Assembly: GCF_036327415.1 (NCBI RefSeq)
Contig: NZ_CP123961.1
Location: 124,001-188,000 of the forward strand
Direction of reading: 5' to 3'
Source: Bartonella grahamii subsp. shimonis
Lineage (GTDB): Bacteria; Pseudomonadota; Alphaproteobacteria; Rhizobiales; Rhizobiaceae
DNA: 64,000 bases
Shown here: positions 26,363-38,161 of the stretch, in pieces
Layout of the letters: every line of letters begins with the position of its first letter
Numbering within the stretch: position 1 is the stretch's first letter
Made by a program: the position numbers and the translations under genes
The notes under the pieces: generated by a model
Database searches by the model: none
What the model saw: only the letters and a program-made list of their open reading frames with translations
What the model was told of the DNA's origin: nothing

Positions 26363-27103
26363 ATGCAATACAGCGGAACATCTGAAGATCTAAAAAACAT
26401 AGTTTGCAAGTGTGGATATCAAATTACAGATGCTAAACTTCTACCACATCAATCCCCTGGAATATATCAGATCAAAACCTCCAAAGGAGGCACTATTAAT
26501 TGGTATAAAAGCACAGGAAAACTTCAAGTTCAAGGCAAAGAAAACATAAAACAAAATTTAATAGAAGATTTAGCAAAGCATCTAGAAGAAACATCAACGA
26601 TTCCTTCTTCAAAAACTGCTTCCAATCCTTCAAATAAAAAAATCTTTATCGTTCATGGTCATGATTGTTATGCTTTAAAGGAGCTTGAAAATGCTCTTCT
26701 CAAGCTTGGTCTGGAACCATACATCTTACAAAATACAAGCGGCAATGGTTTACCCATCATTCAAACTTTGAAAAAAGAAATTTGTGACAGTTCTATAGAT
26801 TTTGGTATTGTACTCTTAACGCATGATGACATGGGTTATGCTAGATCTGATTGTGAAACAAAAGCTCGATTTCGTGCGCGACAAAATGTTATTTTCGAAA
26901 TGGGCATGTTAGCTGCCGCACTTCCTCTTGAGAGGATTGCTCTCCTACAAAAAGAAGGCATTGAAATGCCTTCAGATGTTGGTGGAGTTTACTACCTTTC
27001 TTTTAAAGAACAGGTAAAAGAAACATTTCCCAAACTTATAGAGCGCTTACAAGAAGCTGATTTCTCTTTTAATACAAATGAAATTACTCGTGCATTAAAT
27101 TAA
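26363..27103 (+). CDS. CAP12/PycTIR-type TIR-like protein, possible NAD-degrading defence effector
   Basis: 246 aa. Residues about 92-220 form a TIR-like nucleotide-binding domain of the type found in CAP12 and Pycsar effectors: strand 1 KKIFIVHGHD, ALKELENALLKLGLEPYIL, SIDFGIVLLTHDDMGYA, then RARQNVIFEMGMLAAALP, whose Glu (about 179) is the predicted catalytic residue, and IALLQKEGIEMPSDVGGVYY. The N-terminal 60 residues form a small separate domain with GGTINWYKSTGKLQVQGK, which looks like the N-terminal TBP-like fold of RNase HIII; that is a guess. A ribosome binding site (CAGGGGA) precedes the ATG. No cyclase, CD-NTase or other defence partner lies nearby, so it may act alone. Substrate and trigger are unknown. 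Confidence 0.75.
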   Translation: MQYSGTSEDLKNIVCKCGYQITDAKLLPHQSPGIYQIKTSKGGTINWYKSTGKLQVQGKENIKQNLIEDLAKHLEETSTIPSSKTASNPSNKKIFIVHGHDCYALKELENALLKLGLEPYILQNTSGNGLPIIQTLKKEICDSSIDFGIVLLTHDDMGYARSDCETKARFRARQNVIFEMGMLAAALPLERIALLQKEGIEMPSDVGGVYYLSFKEQVKETFPKLIERLQEADFSFNTNEITRALN

Positions 27104-28034: not shown

Positions 28035-28112
28035 CAAAAAACACGGGGGCTGTTGTCATGATTTTGGTAATCATTCCAGAGAGGTTGAAAGGCGGATAGC
28101 CTCTCATTAAAA
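28035..28112. repeat. Dispersed repeat family C, copy 2
   Basis: Same block as at 27300: TTGTCATGATTTTGGTAATC, TTCCAGAGAGGTTGAAAG and CGGATAGCCTCTCATTA. It precedes the first regulator cassette. Confidence 0.55.
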
Positions 28113-28185
28113 AACAAATTTTGTAAGTAAAAACTATTTTTATTGTAAATTTCCTGAAATTACTTTATGAATTAAAAGATGTTTT

Positions 28186-28372
28186 GGTCGCATACGCAAC
28201 GACCAATAGGGCTCTAAAACCCGAAAACTCAAACATGAATTTATCCCACTCCTGTGGGTATCCCGGAATTCCGGGAGATTTTGCTATGTCCAGGTGCTTC
28301 TCAGCACTAAAAGCAAAATGCTGATTTGAGTTCAGTTTTAGACTCCCGGAATACTCATGCGAGGGCGCTCGC
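28186..28372 (+). ncRNA. Brt-like structured RNA leader, copy 1
   Basis: Begins with hairpin GGTCG...CGACC (28186-28204). An outer stem pairs CTAAAAC (28214) with GTTTTAG (28335), and an inner stem pairs AACTCAAA (28226) with TTTGAGTT (28325). Inside are the CCCAC/GTGGG hairpin (28245), the palindrome TCCCGGAATTCCGGGA (28261-28276), a GTGCT/AGCAC hairpin, and a 12-residue leader peptide frame (28286-28324, MSRCFSALKAKC). The palindrome's right half (28268-28277) can pair instead with CTCCCGGAAT (28343-28352). It ends with GCGAGGGCGCTCGC. From memory, it matches the Bartonella Brt RNA family placed upstream of Trp regulators. Confidence 0.8.
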
Positions 28373-28387
28373 AACCGGCGGGGAAAA

Positions 28388-28753
28388 ATGCAATCTCAAA
28401 ATCTTAATATTGATCTTTTTATTGGCAAAAAAATTCGTTTTAGACGAAAAATGCTAAAAATGTCTCAAACAACTTTAGGTCAACATTTAGGTGTCACCTT
28501 CCAACAAATTCAAAAATATGAAAACGGCTTAAATCGTGTAAGCGCGGGGCGTTTAATGGAAATTTCTGATATCTTAAATATTCCCATTTCCTTTTTTTAT
28601 GCGGATATCATCACAAAACAGCAGCCTCCGTACCACCATGATGAAATCGCATCAAACACAGAGGAATATCTGCTGCTCAAAAGGTTTAGAACGCTCACCA
28701 CGGTAAAAAAGAACGCCATTTTACAGCTCATCTCTGATGAAAATGCAAGCTAA
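28388..28753 (+). CDS. XRE-family regulator, Trp-like, copy 1
   Basis: 121 aa, an N-terminal XRE helix-turn-helix (KMSQTTLGQHLGVTFQQIQK, residues about 23-42) followed by YENGLNRVSAGRLMEISDIL and an acidic/hydrophobic C-terminus, the general shape of small phage-like repressors. Seven copies occur in this window, mostly downstream of the structured leader; from memory they match Trp proteins that control adhesin expression in B. henselae. The ATG is 15 bases after the last leader hairpin and is preceded by GGCGGGG. Confidence 0.85.
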   Translation: MQSQNLNIDLFIGKKIRFRRKMLKMSQTTLGQHLGVTFQQIQKYENGLNRVSAGRLMEISDILNIPISFFYADIITKQQPPYHHDEIASNTEEYLLLKRFRTLTTVKKNAILQLISDENAS

Positions 28754-28933
28754 CACCACATGGATAGCACACACCACGCTCTATTCAAAACCTCCCTTCC
28801 CCCTCGTAAATGCTTTATTACTTGAATGCAAAACACGCCACCCCTCCATTTTGAGAAACGACACGTTAAGAGACACTATTTTAATTTTTATTGTAAATTT
28901 CCTGAAATTACTTTATGAATTAAAAGATGTTTT

Positions 28934-29122
28934 GGTCGCATACGCAACGACCAAAAGGGAACTGAAAACCCTAGATCCGAGCGTAAAATAAGCCCACTTT
29001 GTGGGTATCCCGGAATTCCGGGAGATTTTGCTATGTCCAGGTGCTTCTCAGCACTAAAAGCAAAATGCTGACTCGGATTCAGTGTTTTCAGACTCCCGGA
29101 ATACTCATGCGAGGGCGCTCGC
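28934..29122 (+). ncRNA. Brt-like structured RNA leader, copy 2
   Basis: Same layout as copy 1, but the stems differ and compensate: outer CTGAAAAC (28962) with GTTTTCAG (29084); inner ATCCGAG (28975) with CTCGGAT (29072). Hairpin CCCAC-TTT-GTGGG and the TCCCGGAATTCCGGGA palindrome are kept. The leader peptide frame MSRCFSALKAKC is present and ends with TGA. Confidence 0.8.
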
Positions 29123-29137
29123 AACCGGCGGGGAAAA

Positions 29138-29515
29138 ATGCAATCTCAAAATCTTAATATTGATCTTTTTATTGGCAAAATTATTGGCAAAAAAATTCGT
29201 TTGAAACGAAAAATGTTGAAAATGTCTCAAAAAACATTAGGTCAACATTTAGGTGTCACTTTCCAACAAATCCAGAAATATGAAAACGGCTTAAATCGTG
29301 TAAGCGCGGGGCGTTTAATGCAAATTTCCGATATCCTCAATGTTCCGATTGCCTTTTTCTATGCCGATATCTTAACAAAACAACAGCCCCCATATCATCA
29401 TGATGAAATCGCATCAAGCACAGAGGAATATCTGCTGCTCAAAAGATTTAGAACGCTCACAACAGTAAAAAAGAACGCCATTTTACAGCTCATCTCTGAT
29501 GAAAATGCAAGCTAA
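29138..29515 (+). CDS. XRE-family regulator, Trp-like, copy 2
   Basis: 125 aa. Differs from copy 1 by an in-frame 12-bp duplication near the start (FIGKIIGKKIRLKRKML) and a few substitutions (TTLG to KTLG, MEIS to MQIS). The HTH residues LGQHLGVTFQQIQKYENG are identical, so DNA specificity is probably unchanged. Confidence 0.85.
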   Translation: MQSQNLNIDLFIGKIIGKKIRLKRKMLKMSQKTLGQHLGVTFQQIQKYENGLNRVSAGRLMQISDILNVPIAFFYADILTKQQPPYHHDEIASSTEEYLLLKRFRTLTTVKKNAILQLISDENAS

Positions 29516-29860
29516 CACCACATGGATAGCGCGCTATTCATAAGCATTCATACGTATTTTAAAAAGCAACCTCCATTGCAAGCATTTTTTCATTTTAGGG
29601 AGAAGAAGCCCTTCATATAATAAAAAATAAGCATCTTGACACACGATAACCCTTCATCATTATTATTTTTAACAGGACTGTTTTAAATAGTCTGGCTCTT
29701 GTCAACGTATATGCTATTTGTGTGAACTTAGCCAAACCTACCTTAACTAAGACAAAAAACTGAAAGATAAAAATAATATAGAAATGAGATTCTTATACTA
29801 CAGCTTGTAATGATGAAAGAAAAATGTGAAAATTCTGATCGGTAATGAGGAGGAAATACC

Positions 29861-30904
29861 ATGATCAAGAGAAGCATTAAGCTGCTTATCTTAAGCGTGA
29901 TTGGGCTTGCAAGTTCTGCTATCAATTCAGCTGGAAACACTGAAGAATTCTCAAATTTTGAAAGCTCTCTCAATACGATTCAAGACGCTTCAAACACACA
30001 AGAACCTTTTCAGCCCTTAAAAGCTGGAGACTATGACAAAGCCTATGACTATTACATCCAAGGTTATTATTTAAAAGCTTTTCGTGAAGCACTCCGACGT
30101 GCTGAAAAAAATGACCCTTTTGCACAAACTCTTCTTGCCCGAATTTATATGGAAGGATGTGCTGTTCCTATTGACGGTGCGCGTGCTGCTTTATGGTTTG
30201 AACGCGCCGCAAAACAGGGGGAACCCCAAGCACAACTACGCTATGGACTTATGTTGTTTGATGGTCACTTTATAAAACAAAATCAAAAACTTGGTGAACA
30301 GTTTATTCAAAAAGCTGTCAATGCAGGCGTCAAGGAAGCCTATTTTTATTACGGACAACTGCTTCTTTATAAAGCCGCACAGGAAAAACAAGCTCTCCCT
30401 GGTGTTTCTTCCCAAAGTCGTGAAAATGAAGCCATCGAGCAAGCCTTAAAATTGTACTTAAAAGGGGCTGCTCTTGGAGATGCTGAAGCTGCTTTTTCTG
30501 CTGCAAAAATTCTTTCCTTAGGCACGTTAAAACGACCAAAGGATGATCGCAATGCCCGCAAGCTCATGGAGGTAGCGGCTCAAAACAACCACTTAAAAGC
30601 TCAACTTCATTTAGCACAATGGCTTATACAGGGGCGTGGAGGAGAAACAGATTTTCACCGTGCTTTTCATTTACTTCAAAGAAATGCCATTAAAATGGTC
30701 GCACCAGCACAGATTTCCCTTGCAAGGCTTTATCGAGATGGCACAGGAACAAAAGGCGATATGATAATGGCAGCAGCATGGTATATACTCGCAAAGGAAG
30801 CAAAAATGCAAGCCCCTGATCTTGAAATAATGCTCCAAGGCATGGACAAGACACAACTGGAAAAAGCCCACAAAGAAGCAATAAAGCTCCTTCCTGTTTT
30901 TTAA
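29861..30904 (+). CDS. Sel1-repeat (SLR) protein, secreted or periplasmic
   Basis: 347 aa. A signal peptide (LLILSVIGLASSAINSAG) precedes at least five Sel1-like repeats: AQTLLARIYMEGCAVPIDGA, AQLRYGLMLFDGHFIKQNQK, AYFYYGQLLLYK, AEAAFSAAKILSLGTLKRPK, AQLHLAQWLIQGRGGETD and AQISLARLYRDGTGTKGD. Sel1 proteins act as scaffolds for protein-protein contacts; alphaproteobacterial examples include ExoR-type regulators of two-component systems and PodJ-like polarity proteins. Its function here is unknown. It splits the regulator array, lying between cassette 2 and the orphan leader. A GGAGGAAAT ribosome binding site precedes the ATG. Confidence 0.85.
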   Translation: MIKRSIKLLILSVIGLASSAINSAGNTEEFSNFESSLNTIQDASNTQEPFQPLKAGDYDKAYDYYIQGYYLKAFREALRRAEKNDPFAQTLLARIYMEGCAVPIDGARAALWFERAAKQGEPQAQLRYGLMLFDGHFIKQNQKLGEQFIQKAVNAGVKEAYFYYGQLLLYKAAQEKQALPGVSSQSRENEAIEQALKLYLKGAALGDAEAAFSAAKILSLGTLKRPKDDRNARKLMEVAAQNNHLKAQLHLAQWLIQGRGGETDFHRAFHLLQRNAIKMVAPAQISLARLYRDGTGTKGDMIMAAAWYILAKEAKMQAPDLEIMLQGMDKTQLEKAHKEAIKLLPVF

Positions 30905-30943
30905 AATACTACCCTCTGCTTCAAAGAGATAAAATTTATAGAA

Positions 30944-31051
30944 ATTCCGGGAGTTTTTGCACTGTCCAGGGGCGATAAGCCCTAAAAGCAAAAAGGCTGA
31001 TTTGAGTTCAGTATTTTCAAGCTCCCGGAATACCTACGCGAGGGCGCTCGC
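30944..31051 (+). ncRNA. Orphan, 5'-truncated Brt-like leader
   Basis: Starts inside the palindrome (ATTCCGGGAG) and lacks the left stem arms. The leader-peptide ATG is lost (CTGTCCAGG). The hairpin after it has changed on both sides (AGGGGC-loop-GCCCT instead of GGTGCT-loop-AGCAC), keeping the stem. CTCCCGGAAT and GCGAGGGCGCTCGC are present. It is followed by a 22-codon stub instead of a full regulator. Confidence 0.65.
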
Positions 31052-31070
31052 ACCCGGCGGGGGGAGGGGA

Positions 31071-31139
31071 ATGCAAACCAAAGATCTTTATAACGACATT
31101 GCCATTGGCAAAGAAAGCACACTTGTATCATTTGCTTAA
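31071..31139 (+). pseudogene. Stub of a Trp-like regulator
   Basis: ATG after the orphan leader opens MQTKDLYNDIAIGKESTLVS and stops after 22 codons. The first residues resemble the start of the regulators (MQSKNPHIDLFVGKK); the HTH domain is absent. Confidence 0.5.
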
Positions 31140-31302
31140 GCAAACAATATCCAATAAGCAAAAGAACTAGGCTATCGCGCAAATTCCAAAAGCTCTATTT
31201 TTTCATTCTTTTTGCTTGGATGAAAAACACGCCAACTCTCATTAAAAAACTATTTTTTATTGCCAATCTTCTGAAATTGCTTTATGAATTGAAAGGTGTT
31301 TT

Positions 31303-31491
31303 GGTCGTATACGCAACGACCAATAGGGATCTAAAAACCCGAAACCTCGTACATAATTTATCCCGCTTTGCGGATATCCCGGAATTCCGGGAGATTTTGC
31401 TATGTCCAGGTGCTTCTCAGCACTAAAAGCAAAAAGCTGATTCGAGGTCAGTGTTTTTAGACTCCCGGAATACCAACGCGAGGGCGCTCGC
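31303..31491 (+). ncRNA. Brt-like structured RNA leader, copy 3
   Basis: Outer stem CTAAAAAC (31331) with GTTTTTAG (31453); inner stem ACCTCG (31344) with CGAGGT (31443), both compensating relative to copies 1 and 2. The small hairpin reads CCGC-TTT-GCGG, another paired change. The leader peptide ends as MSRCFSALKAKS. Confidence 0.8.
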
Positions 31492-31511
31492 ACCCGGTGG
31501 GGGGCTTTAAA

Positions 31512-31877
31512 ATGCAAAGTAAAAATCCTCATATTGATCTTTTTGTAGGCAAAAAAATTCGTTTTAGACGAAAAATGCTAAAAATGTCTCAAAAAACATT
31601 AGGTCAACATTTAGGTGTCACTTTCCAACAAATCCAGAAATATGAAAACGGCTTAAATCGTGTAAGCGCGGGGCGTTTAATGCAAATTTCCGATATCCTC
31701 AATGTTCCGATTGCCTTTTTCTATGCCGATATCTTAACAAAACAACAGCCCCCATATCATCATGATGAAATCGCATCAAGCACAGAAGAATACCTGCTTT
31801 TAAAAAGATTTAGAGTTTTACCAACAGTAAAAAAGAAAGCCATTTTACAGCTCATCTCTGATGAAAATGCAAGCTAA
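31512..31877 (+). CDS. XRE-family regulator, Trp-like, copy 3
   Basis: 121 aa from the ATG at 31512; an in-frame ATG at 31497 adds five residues but lies within the GGTGGGGGG ribosome binding region, so 31512 is preferred. N-terminus MQSKNPHIDLFVGKK; HTH as in the other copies; C-terminal variant FRVLPTVKKKAILQ. Confidence 0.85.
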   Translation: MQSKNPHIDLFVGKKIRFRRKMLKMSQKTLGQHLGVTFQQIQKYENGLNRVSAGRLMQISDILNVPIAFFYADILTKQQPPYHHDEIASSTEEYLLLKRFRVLPTVKKKAILQLISDENAS

Positions 31878-32057
31878 CACCACATGGATAGCACACACCA
31901 CGCTTTATTCAAAGCCTCCCTTCCCCCTCGTAAATGCTTTATTGCTTGAATGCAAAACACGCCAACCCTCTGTTTTAAGAAACGACACGTTAAGAGACAC
32001 TATTTTAATTTTTATTGCCAATCTTCTGAAATTACTTTATGAATTAAAAGATGTTTT

Positions 32058-32255
32058 GGTCGCATACGCAACGACCAATAGGGCTCTAAAACCCGAAAAC
32101 CCGAAAACTCAAACATGAATTTACCCCACTTTGTGGGTATCCCGGAATTCCGGGAGATTTTGCTATGTCCAGGTGCTTCTCAGCGCTAAAAGCAAAAAGG
32201 CTGATTCGGATTCAGTATTTTCAAGCTCCCGGAATACCAACGCGAGGGCGCTCGC
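32058..32255 (+). ncRNA. Brt-like structured RNA leader, copy 4 (mismatched stems)
   Basis: Elements are in the same order, but the left arms (CTAAAAC, AACTCAAA) are of the copy 1 type and the right arms (TTCGGATT, TTTTCAAG) are of the copy 5 type, so the long stems do not pair. It looks like a recombinant of two leaders. The leader peptide frame has no stop and runs into the regulator frame. Confidence 0.75.
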
Positions 32256-32275
32256 AACCGGCGGGGGGCTTTAAA

Positions 32276-32641
32276 ATGCAAAGTAAAAATCCTCATATTG
32301 ATCTTTTTGTAGGCAAAAAAATTCGTTTTAGACGAAAAATGTTGAAAATGTCTCAAAAAACATTAGGTCAACATTTAGGTGTCACTTTCCAACAAATCCA
32401 GAAATATGAAAACGGCTTAAATCGTGTCAGCGCAGGGCGTTTAAAAGAAATTTCCGATATCCTCAATGTTCCGATTGCCTTTTTCTATGCCGATATCTTA
32501 ACAAAACAACAGCTTCCATATCATCATGATGAAATCATCTCCAGCACAGAAGAATATCTGCTGCTCAAAAGATTTAGAACGCTTACCTCGATTAAACAAA
32601 GAGCCATTTTACAGCTCATCTCGGATGAGAATACAAGCTAA
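32276..32641 (+). CDS. XRE-family regulator, Trp-like, copy 4
   Basis: 121 aa from 32276. An uninterrupted frame begins at 32165 (the leader peptide start) and would add 37 residues (MSRCFSALKAKRLIRIQ...). The conserved internal ATG with its GGCGGGG is preferred. Variants: RLKEISDIL, QQLPYHH and TSIKQRAILQ. Confidence 0.85.
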   Translation: MQSKNPHIDLFVGKKIRFRRKMLKMSQKTLGQHLGVTFQQIQKYENGLNRVSAGRLKEISDILNVPIAFFYADILTKQQLPYHHDEIISSTEEYLLLKRFRTLTSIKQRAILQLISDENTS

Positions 32642-32821
32642 CACCACATGGATAGCACACACCACGCTCTATTCAAAACCTCCCTTCCCCCTCGTAAATG
32701 CTTTATTGCTTGAATGCAAAACACGCCAACCCTCTGTTTTAAGAAACGACACGTTAAGAGACACTATTTTAATTTTTATTGCCAATCTTCTGAAATTACT
32801 TTATGAATTAAAAGGTGTTTT

Positions 32822-33014
32822 GGTCGCATACGCAACGACCAATAGGGCCTTGAAAACCCTATAATCCGAACGCGAAAATAAACCCACCCCTGTGGGTATC
32901 CCGGAATTCCGGGAGATTTTGCTATGTCCAGGTGCTTCTCAGCGCTAAAAGCAAAAAGGCTGATTCGGATTCAGTATTTTCAAGCTCCCGGAATACCAAC
33001 GCGAGGGCGCTCGC
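32822..33014 (+). ncRNA. Brt-like structured RNA leader, copy 5
   Basis: Outer stem CTTGAAAA (32849) with TTTTCAAG (32977); inner stem AATCCGAA (32863) with TTCGGATT (32964): perfect pairing with sequences different from copies 1-3. The leader peptide reads through into the regulator frame, as in copy 4. Confidence 0.8.
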
Positions 33015-33034
33015 ACCCGGTGGGGGGCTTTAAA

Positions 33035-33403
33035 ATGCAAAGTAAAAATCCTCATATTGATCTTTTTGTAGGCAAAAAAATTCGTTTTAGACGAAAAATG
33101 TTGAAAATGTCTCAAAAAACATTAGGTCAACATTTAGGTGTCACCTTCCAACAAATTCAAAAATATGAAAACGGCTTAAATCGTGTAAGCGCGGGGCGTT
33201 TAATGCAAATTTCCGATATCCTCAATGTTTCGATTTCCTTTTTTTATGCGGATATCATCACAAAACAACAGTCCCCATACCACCATGATGAAATCATCTC
33301 CAGCACAGAAGAATACCTGCTTTTAAAAAGATTTAGAGTTTTACCAACGGTAAAAAAGAAAGCCATTTTACAGCTCATCGCTGATCAAAATGAAAACTTT
33401 TAA
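33035..33403 (+). CDS. XRE-family regulator, Trp-like, copy 5
   Basis: 122 aa from 33035 (an upstream in-frame start at 32924 is the leader ATG). Ends QLIADQNENF instead of QLISDENAS, because the 3' flank conserved after other copies is replaced here by unrelated sequence. HTH residues are identical to the other copies. Confidence 0.85.
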   Translation: MQSKNPHIDLFVGKKIRFRRKMLKMSQKTLGQHLGVTFQQIQKYENGLNRVSAGRLMQISDILNVSISFFYADIITKQQSPYHHDEIISSTEEYLLLKRFRVLPTVKKKAILQLIADQNENF

Positions 33404-33479
33404 CATTATGATATAGGGCGCTACACTCTCTGTTCTTAACTTGCCTCCCACACCTCAAAGGACAGAAGTCCCTTCCCTA

Positions 33480-33690
33480 TCCAGTTGGTAAACAATCCGT
33501 CTTCTCAAAACAGAACGCTTTTAGCTTCCCATTTCATGTGGTTCATTTCACAAGATTATCCGGACAAGCCCCCCTCATATATTCACCACATATTCTCATA
33601 AAAATATCACATGTGCAAAGTTTGATGCCTTACAGCACCACACCTCAAACGATAGTATTTTACAGCAAACAGAATAAGCATTCATGCGTA
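33480..33690 (+). repeat. Dispersed repeat family B, copy 2
   Basis: Shares CCCCTCATATATTCACCACA, ATGCCTTACAGCACCACACC and CACCTCAAACGATAGTATTT with copies at about 12885 and 57085. A 23-residue frame from 33626 reads MPYSTTPQTIVFYSKQNKHS and runs to a stop just where the next frame (HAYFKKDS) would continue it. Confidence 0.55.
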
Positions 33691-33718
33691 TTTTAAAAAA
33701 GATAGCCCTCAAAAAGCA

Positions 33719-33856
33719 ATGCTTGAAAATTTTTTTGGTCAATCTGGAACAGCACCTAACGCATCATTTTATAATGGTGACAGAGGACGTGATCTTAACA
33801 TGCAAACGCAAAAAATTGCTTTTTTATCACAATCACCAAAAGCAGCTGTTTATTAA
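33719..33856 (+). other. Possible small gene or gene remnant
   Basis: 45 codons: MLENFFGQSGTAPNASFYNG followed by DRGRDLNMQTQKIAFLSQSP and KAAVY. In the same frame, codons upstream read HAYFKKDSPQKA. Joined to the frame in repeat B by one frameshift, it would form an ~80-residue protein. I do not recognise it; it may be a decayed gene of which repeat B is the 5' end. Confidence 0.3.
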
Positions 33857-34034
33857 AATATACGCCACAAGAAGCACTTCAAGCAACCTTTACAGCTGAA
33901 ACCATTATTCATTGATTAATTAACCGATTGATTAGATACCGATATGTTGTTAAGTAGCTATAGGTAAAGTTGCTCTTAATTTCTGGAATAGGAGCTTCGC
34001 AAAAAAGAGCAACAATAAGTAAGGGGAATTAACG

Positions 34035-34433
34035 ATGTTAAAATATTTATTGCTGTCACCGGTTGTGTTGGTGGCAGGTTGCGCATCTGTAGGCAATTAT
34101 TCATCAAATTATGTTGATCAAAGTCTTACAAAGCGTCAGGCACAATTAGTCGCTAACAAATTTATTAGCGGTAACAAAGGGTTTTTACCACCCGCTACAA
34201 CCACACTTCTTATAAAGAAAAATAATACAGCAGACAACTTTACTCCTGTATTTATCAATCTGTTGCGACAGAATGGATATAATGTGATTTATACAGATCA
34301 ACCCCAAAAACAACAAAACATGGGTGTGAATTTGAGTTATAGAATAAGATTAAATAGTAGCACTATAGTGTCTCTTTTTCAGTATAACGTGAACGGAGAG
34401 CCGCGTTCTTATATAAATACTCATCCCAGATGA
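34035..34433 (+). CDS. Small lipoprotein resembling conjugal transfer TrbH
   Basis: 132 aa. A lipoprotein signal peptide with lipobox VAGC (Cys about 16) is followed by NYVDQSLTKRQAQLVANKFI, LPPATTTLLIKKNN, FTPVFINLLRQNGYNVIYTD and a short C-terminus. The PPA-T-L motif and the pattern LRxxGYxVxY resemble TrbH of trb conjugation clusters, but no other trb or tra gene is present here, so it is probably a stray copy or unrelated lipoprotein. A ribosome binding site (AAGGGG) precedes the ATG. Confidence 0.5.
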   Translation: MLKYLLLSPVVLVAGCASVGNYSSNYVDQSLTKRQAQLVANKFISGNKGFLPPATTTLLIKKNNTADNFTPVFINLLRQNGYNVIYTDQPQKQQNMGVNLSYRIRLNSSTIVSLFQYNVNGEPRSYINTHPR

Positions 34434-34614
34434 ACCCGCTATTTAATGTAAACATTCTCTATATTTTAAACGTAAAGACTTAAAAGCTCTTGCGAAAGGC
34501 AAAGAGATTTGCAGCTTAATAAAAAACCTCATTTTTAGCCAGAGTGGATAAATTTTATTATAGATTGTAACAATACAAAATAGTGTAAGTTATAGCTTTA
34601 AGATTTAAGGAAAG

Positions 34615-35123
34615 AAGAATATTAAAAATAATGAAAATGCCCCATACCCTAGCAAATTATTACGCGAAGATGTAAATGCAAAACTTGGCTTATCTGTGAT
34701 TGAAGCAGCTGAATAGCTTTCTATATCCCGTGTAGCATTTTCTAGGGTATCGGTAAAAATCCTTATAACGACATTTTCAGTGGGAAATTCATTGGCAAAA
34801 AAATTCGCTTTAGACGAAAAATGTTGAAAATGTCTCAAAAAACATTAGGTCAACATTTAGGTGTCACCTTCCAACAAATTCAAAAATATGAAAACGGCTT
34901 AAATCGTGTAAGCGCGGGGCGTTTAATGGAAATTTCTGATATCTTAAATGTTCCCATTTCCTTTTTTTATGCTGATATCATTACAAAACAGCAGCCTCCA
35001 TATCATCACGATGAAGTGATCTCAAGCACAGAGGAATATCTGCTGCTCAAACGGTTTAGAACGCTCACCACGGTTAAAAAGAAAGCCATTTTACAGCTCA
35101 TCTCTGATGAGAATGCAAGCTAA
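34615..35123 (+). pseudogene. higA relic joined to a Trp-like regulator (copy 6)
   Basis: Plus-strand sequence before about 34745 encodes a HigA relic (PSKLLREDVNAKLGLSVIEA followed by a stop and LSISRVAFSRVS), matching the higA at 556-777. It then joins a Trp-like N-terminal region (GKNPYNDIFSGKFIGKKIRF) and an intact regulator body. The only usable start is ATG at 34821 (100 aa, MLKMSQKTLGQHLG), which keeps the HTH but loses the first ~22 residues. The RNA leader is absent. It may be unexpressed. Confidence 0.7.
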
Positions 35124-35303
35124 CACCACATGGATAGAACACACCACGCTTTATTCAAAGCCTCCCTTCCCCCTCGTAAATGCTTTATTGCTTGAATGCA
35201 AAACACGCCAACCCTCTGTTTTAAGAAACGACACGTTAAGAGACACTATTTTAATTTTTATTGCCAATCTTCTGAAATTACTTTATGAATTAAAAGGTGT
35301 TTT

Positions 35304-35493
35304 GGTCGCATACGCAACGATCAATAGGGATTAAAAGCCTGAAAAACTCAAACATGAATTTATCCCACTCCTGTGGGTATCCCGGAATTCCGGGAGATTT
35401 TGCTATGTCCAAGTGCTCTCAAGCACTAAAAGCAAAATGCTGATTTGAGTTCAGTGCTTTTAACTCCCGGAATACTCATGCGAGGGCGCTCGC
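35304..35493 (+). ncRNA. Brt-like structured RNA leader, copy 7
   Basis: Outer stem TTAAAAGC (35331) with GCTTTTAA (35456); inner stem AACTCAAA (35345) with TTTGAGTT (35444). The hairpin in the leader peptide changes to GTGCT-CTCA-AGCAC, keeping the stem while the peptide becomes MSKCSQALKAKC. Confidence 0.8.
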
Positions 35494-35508
35494 AACCGGC
35501 GGGGAAAA

Positions 35509-35874
35509 ATGCAATCTCAAAATCTTAATATTGATCTTTTTGTAGGCAAAAAAATTCGTTTTAGACGAAAAATGTTGAAAATGTCTCAAAAAACATTAGG
35601 TCAACATTTAGGTGTCACTTTCCAACAAATCCAGAAATATGAAAACGGCTTAAATCGTGTAAGCGCGGGGCGTTTAATGGAAATTTCTGATATCTTAAAT
35701 GTTCCCATTTCCTTTTTTTATGCTGATATCATTACAAAACAGCAGCCTCCGTACCACCATGATGAAATCGCATCAAGCACAGAGGAATATCTGCTGCTCA
35801 AACGGTTTAGAACGCTCACCACGGTTAAAAAGAAAGCCATTTTACAGCTCATCTCTGATGAGAATGCAAGCTAA
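35509..35874 (+). CDS. XRE-family regulator, Trp-like, copy 7
   Basis: 121 aa, MQSQNLNIDLFVGKKIRF start, otherwise close to copy 1. The conserved 3' flank ends here after about 45 bp, so this closes the array. It is preceded by leader copy 7 with the usual spacing and GGCGGGG. Confidence 0.85.
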   Translation: MQSQNLNIDLFVGKKIRFRRKMLKMSQKTLGQHLGVTFQQIQKYENGLNRVSAGRLMEISDILNVPISFFYADIITKQQPPYHHDEIASSTEEYLLLKRFRTLTTVKKKAILQLISDENAS

Positions 35875-36949: not shown

Positions 36950-37741
36950 ATGGCCCATTCTGCAGTCATGAATGTCATGGTGCAAGCTGCAATGAAAGCA
37001 GGACGCTCGCTCGTGCGTGATTACGGTGAAGTGCAAAATTTGCAAGTGTCTTTGAAAGGACCAGCAGATTACGTTAGCCAAGCAGATCGCAAAGCAGAGA
37101 AAATTATTTTCAATGAATTAAGCAAAGCACGCCCCAAATTTAGTTTTCTAATGAAAGAATCTGAAGAAATCATTGGCGAAGATTCCCAACATCGTTTCAT
37201 TGTTGACCCTTTAGATGGCACCACAAATTTTCTCCATGGTATTCCTTTTTTTGCTATTTCCATTGCCTTAGAAAGCCAAGGAAAAATCGTTGCTGGTGTC
37301 ATTTACAATCCCGTGAGTGATGAACTCTTTACCGCAGAACGCGGCAGTGGTGCTTTTTTCAACGACCGACGCTGTCGCGTTTCTGCTCGGCGCAGACTAG
37401 AAGACTGTGTCATTGCCACAGGCATGCCTCATTTTGGTCGCCCAAATCATGGAACCTATCTAATTGAATTACGCAATGTGATGGCGGAAGTTGCCGGACT
37501 TCGCCGTCTTGGCGCTGCTGCTCTTGAGCTAGCTTATGTCGCCGCAGGAAGAATCGATGGCTTTTGGGAAGATAATCTGCAGATTTGGGATATGGCTGCT
37601 GGAATATTGATGGTTCGCGAAGCCGGAGGTTTTGTCACCGATAAAGAAGGTGACAACGATATATTCCGCAAAAAAAACATCATCGCCGGTAATGAACACA
37701 TTCGCATCAAGTTAGAAAGAGCCCTCAAAAAAGGCATTTAG
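36950..37741 (+). CDS. suhB: Inositol monophosphatase family protein SuhB
   Basis: 263 aa Mg-dependent sugar-phosphatase fold. Metal-binding motifs: GEDSQHRFIVDPLDGTTNFLHG (Glu, DPLDGT) and the C-terminal WDMAAGILMVREAGG. SuhB homologues dephosphorylate inositol-1-phosphate and also act as Nus-factor partners in rRNA transcription in E. coli. It follows efp and is followed by a duplicated fragment of its own 3' end. Confidence 0.95.
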   Translation: MAHSAVMNVMVQAAMKAGRSLVRDYGEVQNLQVSLKGPADYVSQADRKAEKIIFNELSKARPKFSFLMKESEEIIGEDSQHRFIVDPLDGTTNFLHGIPFFAISIALESQGKIVAGVIYNPVSDELFTAERGSGAFFNDRRCRVSARRRLEDCVIATGMPHFGRPNHGTYLIELRNVMAEVAGLRRLGAAALELAYVAAGRIDGFWEDNLQIWDMAAGILMVREAGGFVTDKEGDNDIFRKKNIIAGNEHIRIKLERALKKGI

Positions 37742-37847: not shown

Positions 37848-38161
37848 TTATTGAATTACGCAATGTGATGGCGGAAGTTGCCGGACTTCGCCGTCTTGGC
37901 GCTGCTGCTCTTGAGCTAGCTTATGTCGCCGCAGGAAGAATCGATGGCTTTTGGGAAGATAATCTGCAGATTTGGGATATGGCTGCTGGAATATTGATGG
38001 TTCGCAAAGCCGGGGGTTTTGTCACCGATAAAGAAGGTGACAACGATATATTCCGCAAAAAGAACATCATCGCCGGTAATGAACACATTCGCATCAAGTT
38101 AGAAAGAGCCCTCAAAAAAGGCATTTTCTTACAGTTTTTTACAAAACCCTTAGAACCTTAA
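37848..38161 (+). pseudogene. Duplicated 3' end of suhB
   Basis: Repeats the last ~90 codons of suhB (from IELRNVMAEVAGLRRLG to the KRALKKGI end) with about two substitutions (VRKAGG for VREAGG). It then reads on FLQFFTKPLEP to a different stop. There is a start-like ATG (37865) but no ribosome binding site, so it is not expected to be translated. Confidence 0.85.

Follow-up and report, generated by a model that had tools for sequence, protein, structure and literature searches.

Bartonella henselae produces abundant RNAs of 194-203 nt, Brt1-9, which end 10-18 nt upstream of trp genes whose own RNA is scarce; the family was termed genus-specific, and its structures were obtained with RNAfold (Tu et al. 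2016, PMC5387305; here and below, statements on this and other cited papers refer to the parts available to us). Brt4 and Brt9 are identical, and Brt1 is abundant, its antisense knockdown raised badA, and its deletion was unobtainable; in the main text, as available, the terms "covari" and "pseudoknot" were absent (PMC5387305). In the present study, we analysed a stretch of 64,000 nt from the 2.19 Mb genome of Bartonella grahamii subsp. shimonis (contig NZ_CP123961.1, positions 124,001 to 188,000; referred to as the window), which contains tandem cassettes of a structured leader RNA followed by an XRE regulator gene (trp). The helices of the leader are numbered P1 to P9, and two long-range pairings, each between a 5' and a 3' arm, are referred to as the outer and inner stems.

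Other described systems also invite comparison with these leaders. In attenuation leaders and riboswitches, mutually exclusive helices lie ahead of a gene. Fertility inhibition by FinP/FinO in F-like plasmids is a control of conjugation by RNA, with allelic loops. The repZ leader of I-complex plasmids acts through a pseudoknot, together with the Inc/RNAI antisense RNA. Loop changes in this leader/antisense pair determine compatibility (PMC10724649, available part).

Arm pairing and regulator integrity in Bartonella leaders

Six complete leaders were present between 28182 and 35495 of the window, each upstream of an XRE regulator gene, as the initial annotation had reported, and every arm pair listed there was found: both stems pair, with different sequences, in five copies (for example, copy 1 outer CTAAAAC/GTTTTAG; copy 2 inner ATCCGAG/CTCGGAT; copy 3 inner ACCTCG/CGAGGT). 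The span from P1 to P9 was 193-204 nt, and trp started 15 or 20 nt past P9. Pfam HTH_3 was found in trp copy 1, the one window regulator tested, and the helix-turn-helix (HTH) regions of the Trp proteins were nearly identical, although the leader arms differed. In the whole genome, at least 21 leaders were placed by arm listing, and 24 by covariance model. In size (about 194-203 nt), in position directly before an XRE trp, and in occurring as multiple, highly identical copies, the leaders correspond to the Brt RNAs of B. henselae (PMC5387305), and the suggested Brt/Trp identity was thus supported. Since the Brt RNA end was mapped before trp, and trp starts 15 or 20 nt past P9, both arms should lie on the RNA.

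Leaders were matched in 46 (BLAST) and 49 (R1, a covariance model of the Bartonella leaders) of 71 genomes of the genus. A set of 240 distinct full-length leaders was extracted, with identical cores collapsed so that recent identical duplicates counted once; hits whose extension to model length with flanks left the locus were dropped uncounted, and a further 20 distinct leaders, all partial, were kept apart. With the own partner, the mean longest Watson-Crick run markedly exceeded that with shuffled partners (500 shuffles): 6.45 versus 3.86 (maximum 4.10) in the inner stem, and 6.81 versus 4.73 (maximum 4.99) in the outer stem. Register was also important: among the 229 leaders left after a 97% identity filter, canonical cells, at 89% in the outer and 85% in the inner stem, decreased to 24-63% and 7-51%, respectively, when the 3' partner was slid by 1-3 columns. 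In an alignment of 64 leaders with an intact regulator, folded on the pseudoknotted structure from copy 2, doubly changed cells numbered 195 versus 80 in shuffles (0/500 as high), and pair-counting placed own-partner complementarity above both controls; this alignment comprised 64 of 69 selected leaders, copy 4 and four others having been omitted by hand, which biases its results towards structure. Stem sequences of at least 6 bp were diverse: 48 distinct inner and 47 distinct outer ones, some being longer or shorter versions of others. The proposal that compensatory arms reflect a selected fold therefore held against both shuffled and slid partners.

Pairing was also associated with the state of the adjacent gene. 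When trp was scored as intact (a frame of at least 100 aa with an HTH motif; one of the 240 leaders was too short downstream for scoring), both stems reached at least 6 bp in 124 of 143 leaders with an intact trp, versus 35 of 96 without (Fisher p=1e-15). Stratification by genome gave a Mantel-Haenszel odds ratio of 13 (p=4e-11; 46 genomes, to which single-leader genomes contribute nothing). The fold is therefore tied to cassette function. Copy 4 is a natural hybrid, with 5' arms of the copy 1 type and 3' arms of the copy 5 type, and pairs in neither stem; several other Bartonella leaders also combine 5' and 3' halves of different types, which recombination within the conserved central part would be expected to produce. 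At locus L061 (1500-4300; G000 2117046-2119400), the leaders are spaced 370-400 bp apart, and the three whose trp is truncated to 13-25 codons fail in the inner stem. One genome (G023), which we take to be B. henselae Houston-1, carries two identical leader copies, a likeness to the identical Brt4 and Brt9 of that species (PMC5387305).

Relatives outside Bartonella and the common fold

The resemblance to Brt held, and its restriction to the genus did not: the family extended well outside Bartonella, unlike the "genus-specific" Brt (PMC5387305), with relatives across Alphaproteobacteria. R1 revealed one leader outside the genus in a search of 297 genomes of the order and, within the genus, a single leader in each of three large-genome members; weak matches in other members (E 7.5e-4 to 0.86) were not used. 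The leader outside the genus had the same elements in other letters and was located upstream of a Prok-TraM protein, with a TraR-like frame nearby (by reading). BLAST with this leader matched 412 of 72,556 plasmid records, mostly of Agrobacterium and Rhizobium, and no annotated feature lay beneath the match among the matches listed. The next gene was traM in four of the first eleven plasmid regions and an HTH regulator gene in two, and an HTH/XRE regulator gene in 12/12 further regions (chosen as near relatives of L241, one of the eleven). The distance from P9 to the annotated start codon was 12-34 nt in eight plasmid leaders.

A second covariance model (R2), built on nine plasmid leaders, matched 43/397 genomes of the order, 19/385 of the class, and 10/398 of a phylum sample, all ten of the last being labelled as the same class or nearer; these samples overlap, and some matches were near the limit. 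The two models also recognized each other's families: in 19 of 20 distant loci, R1 had a match at the position of the leader (E 4e-16 to 0.0036), and R2 recovered the five paired window leaders at full length, weakly (E 0.00025, 0.003, 0.05, 0.08, and 0.12), with only fragments of the hybrid copy 4. The window leaders showed the element order of the traM-type family (P1, P2 and its loop, inner strand and P7 loop, P4, P8 round P6, P9). Homology, not convergence, is the simplest reading of these matches. Pairing was preserved in the distant leaders too (1000 shuffles; one fragment skipped, and the other 71 rows collapsed to 64 distinct ones): the cognate run was 6.23 versus 2.80 in the inner stem, and 7.03 versus 4.28 in the outer stem. 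The pairing proposed in the initial annotation was thereby supported in homologous leaders.

No match at the gathering score was obtained with Rfam 15 in the window; in 20 distant loci, two tRNAs alone were found, and in 3 loci only sub-threshold matches, outside the leaders (24 sources in total, made up of the window and a subset of the distant loci). A published description of the traM leader, its noncoding RNA, or such a structured RNA was not found in a search that subscription papers mostly escaped. The available text of a paper on structured RNAs of Pelagibacter (PMC2704228) did not mention conjugation, plasmids, or HTH regulators, and that of a paper on small RNAs (sRNAs) of B. bacilliformis (PMC7717549) did not contain the term "Brt". 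The Brt leader was found in five plasmid records, all of Bartonella, and gave a single short, chance-like match in phage records. In viral contigs, the Bartonella-type core had no exact match, and the traM-type core occurred in 13 stretches, upstream of varied open frames. One viral contig (L323) carries two leaders, each before a different exported-looking open frame, which means that regulator genes are not the only ones the RNA precedes.

Several further loci are of separate interest. In L254, L257-L260, and L262, the leaders precede a small protein that, in L254 as the tested case, matches RovC_DNA-bd (PF10074; 31.9 bits versus a cut-off of 26.4); we presume it to be comparable to the QseM-type antiactivators of Mesorhizobium integrative elements. 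QseM is treated in PMC8627217 (available part). Members were also found in alphaproteobacterial genomes of 1.4-2.0 Mb (L279-L283, L285, L286, L288, L289, and L291), four of which carry two or three matches; in this group some matches are near the score limit, the next genes are varied, and the one tested had no Pfam match. In L255, L256, L261, L263, L265, and L277, a second core class was observed, in which the P6 internal loop carries UAUACAACAGG instead of UAUGUCCAGG, with the remaining fold kept.

The arms described as two long-range stems do pair; their architecture was re-read, and they look more like loop-strand pseudoknots crossed by a further long-range helix, P8. From 5' to 3', the order is P1, P2 (its hairpin loop containing the outer 5' arm), the inner 5' arm, P4, P5, P8, P6, P7 (its hairpin loop containing the inner 3' arm), the outer 3' arm, the 3' strand of P8, and P9. 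The internal loop of P6 is near-invariant (AUGUCCA and UAAAA). In the distant leaders, P7 encloses the inner 3' arm (4.33 versus at most 4.20 in 1000 shuffles, n=54), and P2 only just encloses the outer 5' arm (3.98 versus a shuffle maximum of 3.98, n=64); the same test for enclosing hairpins was negative around the outer 3' and inner 5' arms. A loop-strand pseudoknot with a covarying partner, as in leaders of the ColIb-P9/IncB type, was therefore found.

P5 and P8 share a strand and are therefore mutually exclusive. In single-sequence folding, P5 was near certain in copies 2-5 and 7, and copy 1 was split between P5 and P8 (0.57/0.43). Both helices have pairing potential and some doubly changed pairs, which makes a P5/P8 switch plausible. 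Sequestration of the Shine-Dalgarno sequence by the 3' strand of P8, also considered, was possible in some copies, differed between copies in ensemble folding, and was dropped as a family-wide feature. An intrinsic terminator was not indicated, there being no U-run past P9 in the six window copies; in a scan of copies 1 and 2, a plus-strand U-run was found only after P5. Of the 20 distinct partial Bartonella leaders, 12 begin at model positions 97-100, which correspond to the P5 palindrome; this suggests that the palindrome is a recurrent break or recombination point.

These features place the family among the systems introduced above. Like the repZ leader of I-complex plasmids, it is a leader RNA with a pseudoknot, but here the pseudoknots are two, the P6 core is conserved, and the gene that follows is that of an antiactivator, an XRE regulator, or another protein, not a replication gene, whereas the repZ leader has the Inc/RNAI antisense RNA. 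The link between RNA and the control of conjugation recalls FinP/FinO, and a ProQ/FinO-family gene (PF04352; L235 1054-1386) is located upstream of the traM leader on pGV2260; FinP, however, is an antisense RNA to traJ, whereas the present RNA is a sense leader of traM or XRE genes. The exclusive helices P5 and P8 before a gene, and a conserved internal loop as a potential binding site for a partner, are shared with attenuation leaders and riboswitches; the lack of a U-run past P9 and the hypervariable paired stems are differences.

Stem variation and competing explanations

The paired arms vary in sequence. In the distant leaders, an inner stem of at least 6 bp was present in 56 of 71 rows, with 48 distinct sequences (longer and shorter versions counted apart), and an outer stem in 66 of 71, with 34. 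Between L254 and L257-L259, 186-187 of 189 columns outside the inner arms are identical (98-99%), and the whole inner stem is replaced on both sides. Among 15 Rhizobium plasmid leaders (from 13 of 54 plasmid records, with L245 and L246), 14/28 arm columns vary versus 17/178 others (p=1.7e-6); four inner and three outer alleles occur in several combinations. By inspection, both stems are paired in 14 of these 15 Rhizobium-type leaders, with a single G-U in the case of the inner TGTTAG allele; the exception is L241, a hybrid in which, as in copy 4, neither stem matches. In 30 Bartonella pairs with a trp third-position divergence below 5% (drawn from 140 of 143 intact leaders; gene conversion of trp may inflate the contrast), columns differed at 42% in the inner and 29% in the outer stem, at 19-27% in upstream, linker, and loop columns, at 13% in P4, and at 1-7% in P1, P8, and P6 (P1 3%, P8 1%).

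We consider it fairly probable (roughly 0.6) that the element is a cis-acting structured leader whose two pseudoknots matter for how the gene after it, in many cases a brake, is expressed. Each leader would be a 5' RNA of about 195-205 nt, belonging to a family spread over Alphaproteobacteria, in which the P2 loop would pair with the strand just before the 3' strand of P8 (outer stem), the strand after P2 with the P7 loop (inner stem), and the local P5 hairpin would compete with the long-range P8. The fold would set expression of the gene that follows, for example traM or an XRE regulator gene; the Brt RNA ending before trp would be the Bartonella form of this leader. Both pseudoknots may be needed for correct regulation, P5/P8 would act as the switch, and recombination between copies would yield mismatched hybrids, which would be removed by selection or left with a decaying regulator.

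Several observations weigh against this reading. Covariation tests upheld the matching of whole arms, and failed for single long-range pairs: in a test simulated on the tree of the 229 leaders, none was significant (best E=0.89 for the outer and 2.5 for the inner stem), and no R-scape significance is claimed. The null of this test is wide, probably because recombination breaks the tree, and the top-ranked distant column pairs were helix pairs, though below significance. RNAalifold on the 64 leaders found P1, P4, P8, P6, and part of P9; both stems were absent, P8, which crosses them, being preferred. Minimum-energy folding of copies 2, 3, and 7 gave both stems; copy 5 formed the inner one alone, and copy 1 formed none. 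Doubly changed cells in the 229 Bartonella leaders numbered only 11 for P5 and 12 for P8. Nineteen of the 143 leaders with an intact trp, including copy 4, are below 6 bp in at least one stem, and both stems reach 6 bp in only three of the seven distinct leaders of G023. In five of the first eleven plasmid regions, the next gene is hypothetical or unrelated, or no gene is close by, and other leaders precede varied open frames; such varied downstream genes fit a general-purpose or independent RNA equally well.

Why the stems vary may be explained in two ways, which we regard as about as likely as each other. Compensatory drift with gene conversion, in which pairing is needed, the sequence is free, and recombination spreads arm variants with no labelling, is a possible account at well below even odds. 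It agrees with a shape kept while the sequence is free, with alleles common to different copies and genomes, and with the hybrids (copy 4 and L241). On the other hand, variability in the paired arms equals that in unpaired loops, with P1, P6, and P8 nearly constant, and a whole stem was replaced with just 2-3 other changes in 189 columns; drift through mismatched intermediates predicts both poorly. Alternatively, and more tentatively, diversifying selection may act on the hypervariable stem as a determinant specific to each element, comparable to FinP alleles or to the control of replication in ColIb-P9/IncB. Its mechanism might then be a trans partner (an antisense RNA or another RNA copy) that reads the loop, so that the pseudoknot partner must follow. 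The seldom repeated inner stem, the swap of the whole inner stem, the excess of arm columns in Rhizobium, the contrast with P1 and P8 in close pairs, and the placement of variable arms in hairpin loops all favour a label; the ProQ/FinO gene on pGV2260 fits and proves nothing. Against it, linker, loop, and upstream columns are variable as well, and no conserved antisense promoter was seen in a scan of 28080-29200 (copies 1 and 2 only), where a minus-strand promoter-like match at 28428-28401 had a twin in copy 2, with the second hexamer altered in copies 3-5 (by reading). A third complementary arm within 600 nt was also sought and rejected, the upstream places being scattered short matches; of eight counts, that for the inner 5' arm upstream was high (16 versus 8.3, reached by 1/500 shuffles), and that for the inner 3' arm downstream was low (1 versus 7.8). 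Avoidance of shared inner types within genomes was not seen (21/305 pairs within and 596/7321 between genomes). The idea that each leader is distinguishable was not sustained: inner types recur in the window (copies 1 and 7 are alike), and the unique inner and outer combinations of the 15 paired leaders listed in this genome were rejected as evidence of labelling, random arm pairing giving uniqueness 93% of the time.

Tu et al. proposed that Brt1 acts in trans (PMC5387305); its abundance, the badA knockdown result, and the unobtainable deletion speak for such a role. Brt RNAs acting primarily on mRNAs such as badA through the variable arms, with cis control secondary, are an unlikely explanation of the present data: the covarying arms track each other rather than any external target, a regulator gene also directly follows the leader in many distant relatives, and pairing tracks the integrity of the adjacent trp. 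That the arms are DNA half-sites for the regulator, not an RNA stem, is suggested by inverted repeats about 100 bp apart ahead of an XRE gene, and is very improbable: the HTH regions in the window hardly differ while the arms do, the nested hairpins P2 and P7 covary too, and on plasmids traM, which is not an XRE gene, lies downstream of the same element.

Returning to the cis-acting leader, its covarying pseudoknots, the P5/P8 alternative, the mismatched hybrids, and the alphaproteobacterial family are new relative to the published Brt account with its single-sequence folds (PMC5387305). An orphan Bartonella RNA becomes a branch of a broad RNA family, with no matching Rfam model where tested, which adjoins the gene restraining conjugation in Ti-type plasmids (traM, an antiactivator) and elsewhere XRE regulators. 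It is conceivable, albeit doubtful, that this is a self-identity RNA system of alphaproteobacterial mobile elements, in which a hypervariable self-complementary stem has its loop read in trans and each element controls its own brake gene without cross-talk. New specificities might, on the same speculative footing, arise by swapping both arms, with misfits purged, the units being a conjugative plasmid, an integrated element, or a Bartonella cassette. The picture is one of a fixed shape with a stem sequence that behaves as if it were a changeable label. The paired hypervariable stem makes testable why Bartonella keeps many near-identical cassettes, as well as the setting of quorum-sensing antiactivators and RNA stems as identity labels of mobile elements.

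Layout of the window

Table 1. Leaders, arms, and regulator genes in the window (window coordinates).
Feature	Position	Strand	Details
Leader copy 1 (P1 to P9)	28182..28374	+	core AUGUCCA at 28286; P9 28359-28372
Leader copy 1, arms	outer 28214-28220 / 28335-28341; inner 28226-28233 / 28325-28332; P8 28269-28277 / 28343-28351	+	
trp copy 1, XRE regulator (Pfam HTH_3)	28388..28753	+	
Leader copy 2	28930..29124	+	outer 28962-28969 / 29084-29091; inner 28975-28981 / 29072-29078; P8 29016-29024 / 29093-29101
trp copy 2	29138..29515	+	
3'-half leader without 5' arms, then truncated trp start	30941..31139	+	
Leader copy 3	31299..31493	+	outer 31331-31338 / 31453-31460; inner 31344-31349 / 31443-31448; P8 31385-31393 / 31462-31470
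trp copy 3	31512..31877	+	listing of open reading frames (ORFs) opens at upstream GTG, 31497
Leader copy 4, natural hybrid	32054..32257	+	5' arms 32086-32092, 32106-32113; 3' arms 32205-32212, 32218-32225
trp copy 4, open frame despite mismatched leader	32276..32641	+	ORF listing opens at 32165
Leader copy 5	32818..33016	+	outer 32849-32856 / 32977-32984; inner 32863-32870 / 32964-32971; P8 32907-32915 / 32985-32993
trp copy 5	33035..33403	+	ORF listing opens at 32924
trp copy 6, no leader upstream	34821..35123	+	
Leader copy 7	35300..35495	+	outer 35331-35338 / 35456-35463; inner 35345-35352 / 35444-35451; P8 35388-35396 / 35464-35472
trp copy 7	35509..35874	+	

The positions of the leaders and regulator genes are summarized in Table 1. 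The hybrid copy 4 carries an additional CCCGAAAA repeat within its 5' half. Upstream of the cassettes, a CAP12/Pycsar-type TIR domain protein (PF10137, E 2.4e-30) is encoded at 26363-27103 (+) and is a possible defence effector. On the other side, an inositol monophosphatase gene lies at 36950-37741, and its C-terminal part is partially duplicated at 37865-38161 (+).

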